The position numbers and the translations under genes were made by a program. A model generated the notes under the pieces. It worked only from the letters and a program-made list of their open reading frames with translations, was not told the DNA's origin and searched no databases. Below, piece after piece: positions 53,333 through 56,559 of a stretch of DNA of 64,000 bases; positions within the stretch are counted from its first letter, which is position 1; the number at the start of each line of letters is the position of its first letter. The DNA lies in the NCBI GenBank assembly GCA_947459245.1, contig CANHCV010000004.1:20644-84643 (forward strand), in the 5' to 3' direction. Origin of the DNA: Bacteroidota bacterium. Its GTDB lineage: Bacteria > Bacteroidota > Bacteroidia > UBA7662 > CANHCV01.

Positions 53333-54430
53333 TCAAAATTCTACCAATTCGTAATGGGTGCTTCTTCCTCCCTTGGGGTCTTGGCAAAGGATTCCTTTTT
53401 CAATCAAATCCTTCAGGTCGCGAAGTGCCGTGTCGGAGGAGCATTTGGTCATTTTCGCCCATTTGGAAGATTGTAATTTCCCCTCAAATCCATCAAAGAG
53501 TTTATTGATCATCACCCTCTGCCGTTCATTCAGCCGGGTTGCTTCATGAATTTTCCAAAATTCCGCCTTTTTAAGTAAATTCTTTAAGGTAGAAATGCTT
53601 TCCAATAATGCAGTTTTTAAACACTCTAAAAACCAGATGATCCAATCCGTTATGTCGCCCTGGCTGTGTTGAACCTGCTGCAAAATGGCATAATATTTTT
53701 TGCGTTCTACCAAAATTTGACTCGACATGCTGTAAAAACGTTCGGAAGATTTATCGGCACGTGCCAACCAAAAATCGGAAATGGCACGGGCAATTCTTCC
53801 ATTCCCGTCGTCAAATGGGTGGATAATGATGAACCAAAAATGAGCGATGGCCGATTTTATGACCGGATCCAATGCTTGTTCTTCATTCAACCAATTCAAA
53901 AAAAGCTCCATTTCTTTTTCAACACGGTTGGCTGGAACTGCTTCAAAATGCACCTTTTCTTTACCCATAGCTCCAGAAACAATTTGCATTTCACCACTTC
54001 GGTAGCGACCTACCTCAATTTTGAGCATTCCACTGTACCTGGTTGGAAAAAGTGCGGCATGCCAGCCCAATAATCTATTTTTGGTAATCGGATTCCCATG
54101 GTTTTGGGTAGCATCCAATATCATATCCACCACTCCTTCTACATTTCTGGAAACCGAATCCAACCCCGCTACCGATAGCCCAAGACGTCTGCTAATGGAT
54201 GATCGAACTTGATCGTAATCCAACTTTTCGCCTTCAATTTCCGATGAACGAACGATGTCTAACGTTAGCGTTGCAAGATTGAACTCTTCTTTTTTTGCAA
54301 ATCCTAGGGTACTCATCTGCCCCAATATCAATCCCTGTAAATGCCTTACTTCACCAAAAATGGCGTTTATTTCGACTTCTTTCCAAGAGAATTGAGGCCA
54401 ATCTTTCGAATCGTAAATGTATTTTGCCAA
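53333..54430 (-). CDS. class II Fic family protein (DUF4172-type N-terminus, C-terminal winged helix)
   Basis: HPFDDGNGRIAR Fic motif; SSEIEG inhibitory-helix motif; C-terminal NERQRVMINKLFDGFEGKLQSSKWAKMTKCSSDTALRDLKDLIEKGIL; TTG start inferred. Confidence 0.9.
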   Translation of the reverse strand: MAKYIYDSKDWPQFSWKEVEINAIFGEVRHLQGLILGQMSTLGFAKKEEFNLATLTLDIVRSSEIEGEKLDYDQVRSSISRRLGLSVAGLDSVSRNVEGVVDMILDATQNHGNPITKNRLLGWHAALFPTRYSGMLKIEVGRYRSGEMQIVSGAMGKEKVHFEAVPANRVEKEMELFLNWLNEEQALDPVIKSAIAHFWFIIIHPFDDGNGRIARAISDFWLARADKSSERFYSMSSQILVERKKYYAILQQVQHSQGDITDWIIWFLECLKTALLESISTLKNLLKKAEFWKIHEATRLNERQRVMINKLFDGFEGKLQSSKWAKMTKCSSDTALRDLKDLIEKGILCQDPKGGRSTHYELVEF

Positions 54431-54446
54431 GGTGAAGATGAATTGA

Positions 54447-54508
54447 TGCGGTAAATATAACGATTATTCACCGCAAAAATGCGGTGAATATGAAAATTAT
54501 TCGCCGTA
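54447..54508. promoter_or_regulatory. double palindromic operator-like element upstream of fic
   Basis: TGCGGTAAATA-taacgat-TATTCACCGCA-aaaa-TGCGGTGAATA-tgaaaat-TATTCGCCGTA. Confidence 0.75.
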
Positions 54509-54525
54509 AACCTTATTTTAATTCC

Positions 54526-55431
54526 TCAATGCCTCTCGCCCTTTACCATGTCCAATGCGTGAAGGCAAGATGGGAACCATGCATGGAAATAATCGTTGGC
54601 GGCGCCCAAAGACCCCGGAATGCCTAATACCAACATCCCGCGGCTGATGCCCGCAATGGCCCGTCCCAACATGGCCGTGGGAATGCGCGCCTGCCCATAC
54701 TGAAGTCCGTATTGAACCATCCCCGGCAACGATTCATCCATCAAATCCTCCAACGTAGAGTAGGTGAAGTCCCTCGGACCAACGCCCGTACCTCCCGAGA
54801 ATAGAATGACCTGAATACCACAATCGTGCGCTCGTTCCACCTCGTTGCGAATGGCTTGGGAATCGTCGGCAATAACGCGGAGCGGTTCGGTTTTCATGCC
54901 CATTCCCCCCAATTTCTGCACCAAAAAAGTGCCACTCTGGTCTACTGCTTCCCCACGACTAATGCGGTCTGAACACACCACTACCTGAACGGAAATCTCT
55001 TTTAAATCTTTCTTTATCTGGCTTTTGCCGCCCGTTTTGCTCAGCAATCCAATGGAAGAAATTGTTACCTTGGAATCAATGGGCTTCAGCATATCGTACA
55101 TGGTTAGCGCAACAATGGAGGCACCGGTCATGGCTTCCACTTCTACCCCCGTTTTGTAAACCGTATGCACTTCCACCAAAATGCGCACCTTCAATCCGTG
55201 AAATTCGTAATTCACCTGTGTAAATTCGATGGGAAGGGGGTGACAATCGGGAATTAAATCAGACGTACGCTTTACGCCAAAAAGTCCGGCTGTTCGGGCT
55301 ACTTCCAAAACGTTTCCTTTGGGTACTGTGCCTTGTTGAATGGCTTCAATGGTGGCTAAGGTACTCGCTTCGATCCACGCTTCTGCCGTGGCTTTGCGCA
55401 GGGTGCTGTTTTTATGGGTAATATCAACCAT
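54526..55431 (-). CDS. moaCB: bifunctional molybdenum cofactor biosynthesis protein MoaC/MoaB
   Basis: MVDITHKNSTLRKATAEAW; DLIPDCHPLPIEF; VEVEAMTGASIVALTMYDMLK; second half VVVCSDRISRGEAVDQSG and FSGGTGVGPRD. Confidence 0.93.
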   Translation of the reverse strand: MVDITHKNSTLRKATAEAWIEASTLATIEAIQQGTVPKGNVLEVARTAGLFGVKRTSDLIPDCHPLPIEFTQVNYEFHGLKVRILVEVHTVYKTGVEVEAMTGASIVALTMYDMLKPIDSKVTISSIGLLSKTGGKSQIKKDLKEISVQVVVCSDRISRGEAVDQSGTFLVQKLGGMGMKTEPLRVIADDSQAIRNEVERAHDCGIQVILFSGGTGVGPRDFTYSTLEDLMDESLPGMVQYGLQYGQARIPTAMLGRAIAGISRGMLVLGIPGSLGAANDYFHAWFPSCLHALDMVKGERH

Positions 55432-55864
55432 GATTTTCTTTCCAAAATGATTTTTCTGCTGTTTTTTCCTCTCCCCAAATGGGGCATTTGGCTTTGATTT
55501 CGTTCACCAACCATTCGCAAGCTTCGAAAGATGCTTTCCGGTGAGGCGAGGAAACAAAAACAAAGAAACAAATTTCACCGGTTTTAATCTCCCCTAAACT
55601 GTGGTGGATGTGCAAACACGTAATGGCAAATTTCTGAAATGCTTCCTCCCGAATTTCGTGACAAATGCTCAAGGCCAACGATTCATTCGCAGTATAAATA
55701 ATGGATGTAACGGGCAACCCCTCCTTTTCATCGGCTCGTACTTGACCCAAAAACAAGTCGTGTGCACCGATGGAAGTTTTGGTTTGGTGTTTAGCAATGC
55801 TATCTGCAATAAACGCAGGTGTGATGGGGCCTTGGGTAAAAATATTTTTGATCGATGCGCTCAT
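55424..55864 (-). CDS. moaE: molybdopterin synthase catalytic subunit
   Basis: DLFLGQVRADEKEGLPVTSIIYTA; HIHHSLGEIKTGEICFFVFVSSPHRKASFEACEWLV; start at 55864 (ATGA overlap), not ORF-track 56299. Confidence 0.92.
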   Translation of the reverse strand: MSASIKNIFTQGPITPAFIADSIAKHQTKTSIGAHDLFLGQVRADEKEGLPVTSIIYTANESLALSICHEIREEAFQKFAITCLHIHHSLGEIKTGEICFFVFVSSPHRKASFEACEWLVNEIKAKCPIWGEEKTAEKSFWKENHG

Positions 55865-56559
55865 AAAGGTATTTTTTGAAACTGAAAATCGGATAAATTT
55901 CCATGTAGAAGCGGGTTGGAGAGGGGATCTCTTCCATTTCCTAGAATTTCTAACGCTTGAATAACTTGCATTTGTGCCACCAATGCCGGAACCGGTGGGA
56001 GAACTCCTTGAATTTGGCAGCTTCCGCCTTCCGCGCCGGCCGATTCTCCAAACAGTTGGCGGAAAGAACGTCCACGGCTTGGATGGAAAACCCCCGTTTG
56101 AATCTCCGATTGAAAAATTCCAGCGAAAATCCAGGGAATACCCAATTCCTCGCAGGCTTCGTCCATCCAAACTCGGGCTGAAAAATCGTCGGTTCCATCC
56201 AAAACCATATCGCAGCCCGCTAAAAGTTCCAACCGATTTTCGGTGGTTAAAAACGTGGGAAAACCTTCCCATTGGGTATGCGGGAATTGTTCGGCACAAC
56301 GGCCCAACGCTACCTCGGCTTTCAGCTGATCAACATCCTTCGGGCCGTACAGCGGTTGACGGTGCAAGTTGGAGGTGGAAATGCGATCTCCATCGATCAA
56401 ACGAATGCGACCAACTCCGCAACCGCCAAGGGAAAGGGCCATCCAACTGCCCAATCCGCCAACGCCCACCAAAGCAACGGTTTTTTGCTGCAGGGCCGTT
56501 TGGGCTTGCATTCCCCAGCTCGTTAGGGCCAGTTGCCGCTGAAAATACTCGAAATTCAT
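55861..56559 (-). CDS. moeB: HesA/MoeB/ThiF family adenylyltransferase
   Basis: VALVGVGGLGSWMALSLGGCGVGRIRLIDGDRISTSNLHRQPLY; DMVLDGTDDFSAR. Confidence 0.92.
   Translation of the reverse strand: MNFEYFQRQLALTSWGMQAQTALQQKTVALVGVGGLGSWMALSLGGCGVGRIRLIDGDRISTSNLHRQPLYGPKDVDQLKAEVALGRCAEQFPHTQWEGFPTFLTTENRLELLAGCDMVLDGTDDFSARVWMDEACEELGIPWIFAGIFQSEIQTGVFHPSRGRSFRQLFGESAGAEGGSCQIQGVLPPVPALVAQMQVIQALEILGNGRDPLSNPLLHGNLSDFQFQKIPL

Follow-up and report, generated by a model that had tools for sequence, protein, structure and literature searches.

The class II Fic gene carried by this DNA (fic, 53333..54430 on the minus strand of the window, by which we mean the whole 64,000-nucleotide stretch analysed) is preceded by a tandem pair of 29-bp palindromes. 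This element is very probably a cooperative operator, to which the Fic protein would bind through its own C-terminal winged helix (wHTH) and thereby repress its own gene. The architecture is conserved ahead of related fic genes, half-site bases covary with recognition-helix residues, the palindromes are helically phased and overlap a putative promoter, and the association with fic is nearly exclusive.

The element is composed of four half-sites, TGCGGTAAATA (54447-54457), TATTCACCGCA (54465-54475), TGCGGTGAATA (54480-54490) and TATTCGCCGTA (54498-54508). Based upon a re-reading of the sequence, all four lie where a preliminary description of this DNA had placed them, and the 7-nt spacers, AAAA linker, 33-bp period and location 17-78 bp upstream of the fic start which it listed are likewise exact. 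It had also pointed to a promoter-like TATATTTA on the minus strand; this sequence is present, at 54452..54459, one base away from the coordinates then assigned to it. The motif, a putative Bacteroidetes -7 promoter box, falls inside half-site H4. The promoter-proximal palindrome (54447..54475, minus strand) comprises H3 and H4 in the orientation of fic, and the distal palindrome (54480..54508, minus strand) comprises H1 and H2, its outermost arm being imperfect (TACGG). The 4-nt linker between them (54476-54479, no strand assigned) has the same length in all 81 close homologues described below. The operator sits in a 95-bp gap between fic and moaC/B. Upstream on the same strand (54526-56559) are molybdenum cofactor genes, specifying a MoaC/MoaB fusion (NCBIfam PRK03604 match above cut-off) and a MoeB/ThiF-like protein.

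The double-palindrome pattern matches once in the window and not at all in 100 dinucleotide-preserving shuffles. When up to three mismatches were permitted, the host genome yielded, besides the fic element, one three-mismatch site on another contig, with an incomplete AT-rich interior. A generic repeat is ruled out, as the host genome has one element site, at fic.

The fic product is a protein of 365 aa consisting of a DUF4172 domain, a class II Fic domain and a C-terminal winged helix. Its start at 54430 is a TTG codon; most homologues use ATG (MAKYIY...). Pfam matches were obtained to DUF4172 (E 1.5e-29; 102.6 bits for this N-terminal domain, above the cut-off of 25) and Fic (E 7e-17). The inhibitory helix (S/T)xxxE(G/N) is present as SSEIEG, and the Fic motif, HPFDDGNGRIAR, is intact. 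Among 56-64 diverse homologues I65 and E66 of the inhibitory motif and H204, P205, D208, N210, R212 and R215 of the Fic motif are invariant. An AF2 model built from 56 homologues (pLDDT 93.7) has PDB entry 8cil as its best match (TM 0.90 over 367 columns, C-terminal wHTH included), and its C-terminus forms a winged helix with helices at 302-314, 321-328 and 332-344 and strands at 348-350 and 360-362. By domain, motif and fold the protein is a member of the CbFic2-like DUF4172 class II Fic subfamily.

Conservation was assessed in a close set made up of the window and 80 relatives fetched from public genomes, picked partly for their similarity to the window protein and with start codons assigned by rule. 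Upstream conservation among fic orthologues, a check put forward in the preliminary description, was evident: TGCGG-N19-CCGCA-N4-TGCGG-N19-CCGCA precedes fic at this exact spacing in 75 of the 81, the remainder having spacings of 18-4-19 (five) or 16-4-19 (one). All 20 core bases are matched in 47/81, while shuffled upstream regions attain 14 at most. The last half-site typically lies 15-16 bp ahead of the predicted fic start.

Scattering of the element without fic, the other check that had been put forward, was examined in 299 Bacteroidota genomes, 33 of which possess DUF4172. Copies with the AT-rich interior occur in six genomes, each at a DUF4172-fic gene, with one orphan besides, in a genome without a DUF4172 gene (G143). 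This orphan (L115:1488-1538) retains H1, H2 and H3 with no H4, and lies downstream of an AbiEii-like ORF and beside an AbiEii/AbiEi-like pair; we read it as a remnant left by a lost fic. The looser pattern TGCGG-N18-20-CCGCA-N4-TGCGG gave chance sites in several genomes which, lacking the AT-rich GAATA/TATTC interior, were discarded by eye. DUF4172-Fic matches were found in 103 of 395 sampled genomes of the host's class; none was found in the phage records searched, and one viral scan returned nothing. At eight loci (in six of them ~110-190 bp upstream of fic) short sequences common to different genomes, TATAGCCAATGG and TTGGCGGTAATG, lie just upstream of the operator and possibly mark the boundary of a mobile unit or the end of a cassette.

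The palindrome extends well beyond the close homologues. From distant loci, further genomes, IMG/VR contigs and plasmids we assembled 291 non-redundant DUF4172-fic genes and called palindromes with an overall length of 29 and at least 9/11 arm positions complementary. Such a palindrome occurs upstream of 227 of the 291, against 12.3 expected from dinucleotide shuffles; 27 more pass at a relaxed threshold of 8/11, at which ~13% of the genes still show none. Distant genes keep the unit and differ in their half-sites (TGAGCC, TGAGGC, TGCAAC, TGTTAC, TGACCC), the general pattern being TG-NNNN-(G/A)A(A/T)TAA, with some members using TGAG..ATAG. TGCGG is the commonest half-site (172), followed by TGAGC (43), TGCAA (7), TGCGA (5), TGAGG (4) and rarer types such as TGACCC, on a Deinococcus plasmid, and TGTTAC; the half-site caller accepts only a length of 29 and half-sites that begin with TG, so that some true operators are missed from these counts, and the TGTTAC pair (L337, L339) was identified by eye and entered manually. 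In five genomes with two fic genes the half-site codes mostly differ between the copies, as if insulated, for example TGCAAC and TGCGGT in G191, and TGCGGA and TGTTAC in G587. At four loci fic is preceded by at least three palindromes or by additional half-sites.

The variation among half-sites follows that of the protein. Mutual information was calculated between 365 protein columns and the half-site bases of 245 genes (effective number 113), and the top columns were 333 for base 3, 336 for base 5 and 332 for base 6, the last scoring 0.72 against 0.45 for the runner-up. Residue 333 corresponds to base 3 without exception in the 245 genes: Asp with C (189/189), Ala, Ser or Pro with A (54/54) and Met with T (2/2). 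Lys332 is paired with C at base 6 in 44 of 44 genes. For residue 336 and base 5 the pairings are Leu with G (157/159), Thr with C (43/52) and Ile or Val with A (12/13). All three residues fall at the beginning of the AF2 recognition helix 332-344, about one turn apart, in surroundings (S331, T334, A335, R337, D338) which are near-invariant in the alignments. The window protein has S-D-T-A at residues 332-335 (codons 53426..53437, minus strand), the start of this helix, and Leu336 (codon 53423..53425, minus strand) at the position which covaries with base 5.

Co-change was followed on a tree constructed from residues 1-290, that is, with the wHTH left out. Column 333 switches together with base 3 at 3/3 switches and ranks first of 365, base 3 having switched only ~3 times on the tree, so that the covariation is partly phylogenetic; column 332 ranks first of 365 for base 6. 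For base 5, column 336 falls outside the leaders despite leading by mutual information. Because base switches are few, the covariation p-values are nominal. Mean mutual information per domain (0.35, 0.32, 0.38) fails to distinguish the wHTH from the remainder of the protein, and the claim of a code thus rests on the top columns.

The rules were then fixed and used to score 14 new plasmid loci, mostly from other phyla, which gave 12 callable operators. Base 3 was predicted correctly in all 12, and the rule K332 to C6 in 2/2 cases; a rule linking Arg332 to C6 was wrong in 2/3 held-out cases and was rejected. Locus L369 gave no operator call and is ambiguous by eye, and at L360 a 28-bp palindrome (TGATCG), missed by the caller, is visible by eye and agrees with the prediction at base 3. 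With recognition-helix residues ranking first of 365 columns, the covariation and the held-out predictions together support the earlier suggestion that the element may be read by Fic's own C-terminal winged helix.

Where palindromes are paired, their centre-to-centre distances are 33/34 (97 cases), 44/45 (39 cases) or 52-55 bp (42 cases), approximating 3, 4 and 5 helical turns, and phase coherence peaks at a period of 10-10.5 bp. Since the palindrome unit is constant and the distance varies by whole turns, the simplest reading is that two dimers would occupy one face of the helix, and these whole-turn spacings lend support to the cooperative nature which the preliminary description had suggested for the operator.

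The Bacteroidetes -7 promoter box has the consensus TAnnTTTG. TAnnTTTR occurs in 165 of 211 Bacteroidota fic upstream regions, compared with 11% in shuffles, and in 138 of the 211 it overlaps or abuts a half-site core. Plasmids of Sulfitobacter and Deinococcus have TATAAT at the matching position. A further large group has its final palindrome lying over the start codon, with 46 loci at a distance of -1. Overlap with the -7 box and with the start codon both argue for repression by blocking, and from these positions we infer that the sign of the regulation is repression.

Autoregulators can of course activate, and the distal palindrome does lie upstream of the promoter; binding of Fic to the element might therefore serve activation of its own promoter, or sensing of the state of the DNA, rather than repression. 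We regard this as very unlikely, as the putative -7 box coincides in part with the proximal half-site and 46 loci have their last palindrome over the start codon, both of which fit blocking, and CccR, the Yersinia protein compared below, is a repressor (PMC9755527). Control of fic by an unlinked transcription factor would agree with the fact that conserved palindromic operators are mostly bound in trans, but half-site changes follow the Fic recognition-helix residues across three phyla. Such a factor would need to change along with fic, even on plasmids and between paralogues of one genome, and no further target site for it was found in the host genome; we judge it most unlikely.

The palindromes might instead work as hairpins in RNA or DNA, be it as an attenuator, a recombination site or a REP-like repeat, since inverted repeats can fold and, in 79 homologues, the outer five arm positions pair in 86-96%. 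Position 6 of the arms, however, is complementary in only 33-41% of the same homologues, the element is not repeated elsewhere in the host genome, and the putative -7 box is inside the proximal palindrome, so that most of the element would stay untranscribed. Together with the absence of an Rfam match, the mismatch at position 6 led us to reject an RNA element, and a hairpin function of any kind appears extremely improbable. A two-gene Fic toxin-antitoxin module was also rejected: no convincing small ORF adjoins fic, the upstream neighbour being moaC/moaB and the downstream neighbour convergent.

We therefore favour autorepression through the operator. The C-terminal wHTH of the DUF4172-Fic protein would bind the element in an autoregulatory circuit, presumably as one Fic dimer per 29-bp palindrome, and bases 3-6 of each half-site (TG-NNNN-GAATAA) are predicted to be read by the recognition-helix residues 332, 333 and 336. 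In the window two dimers, three helical turns apart on the same face of the DNA, would cover the fic promoter and, the -7 box being inside the proximal half-site, their binding would repress fic. By analogy with CbFic2, the operator-bound enzyme may shift toward a deAMPylating or silent state. One might go further and suggest that the operator, besides being a repressor site, serves as an off-switch for the enzyme, such that its loss, occlusion or destruction, for example by a phage breaking down host DNA, frees AMPylating monomers; we consider this rather unlikely. If true, fic would be a one-gene guard module sensing the state of its own promoter, and the many orthogonal operator codes would prevent cross-talk between paralogues within one cell.

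CccR of Yersinia is a known case of autorepression by a Fic protein. What appears to be new is the family-wide operator, together with its recognition code and the connection to the DNA-switched CbFic2 subfamily; a literature search covering few subscription journals found no description of the operator, and priority is unproven. DUF4172-Fic enzymes are widespread, and CbFic2, the best-studied member, is switched by DNA. Operator and code provide defined candidate DNA ligands for hundreds of members, and with these the control exerted by operator DNA on expression and catalysis becomes testable.

Among known systems the anti-phage protein SoFic (PADLOC PDLC03963; PMC12249575) also has a regulatory C-terminal domain, and the PADLOC SoFic profile matches our protein (E 5.8e-47). 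A bona fide SoFic was nevertheless rejected (73.5 bits against an NCBIfam equivalog cut-off of 550), and the separate small antitoxin of SoFic, AS1, has no evident counterpart at fic here.

The closest solved relative over the full length is CbFic2 of Coxiella burnetii (PDB 8cil), with which the protein shares its domain order throughout (E 5e-100, TM 0.90). Nonspecific DNA binds the wHTH of CbFic2, drives dimerisation and turns the enzyme from an AMPylase into a deAMPylase; its target is a host histone (PMC10628234). Within the subfamily, such a DNA-driven switch is known for CbFic2 only. That study used random DNA only and described no operator, its authors posing a specific sequence as a question (PMC10628234). 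How the CbFic2 dimer seen in the crystal could sit on DNA without rearrangement is not obvious (PMC10628234), which counts against our model.

CccR of Yersinia pseudotuberculosis is a Fic-wHTH protein and acts via inverted repeats to repress its own promoter, as established by EMSA, footprinting, ITC and lacZ fusions (PMC9755527). Its Fic sequence is distant from ours, it is a secreted T6SS effector whereas there is no indication of secretion here, and its operator consists of a single pair of 10-bp repeats set 26 bp apart, AGATAATCAT-N26-ATGATAATCT, rather than tandem phased 29-bp palindromes with another half-site, a difference in geometry which also counts against our model. The two systems are alike in having a Fic protein with a C-terminal wHTH and a palindromic element in its own promoter. 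The DNA-reading helices of the CccR apo dimer are 70.2 A apart (PMC9755527), and the base-reading positions of one 29-bp palindrome are ~21 bp (~71 A) apart; this agreement may be taken as a consistency rather than as a model.
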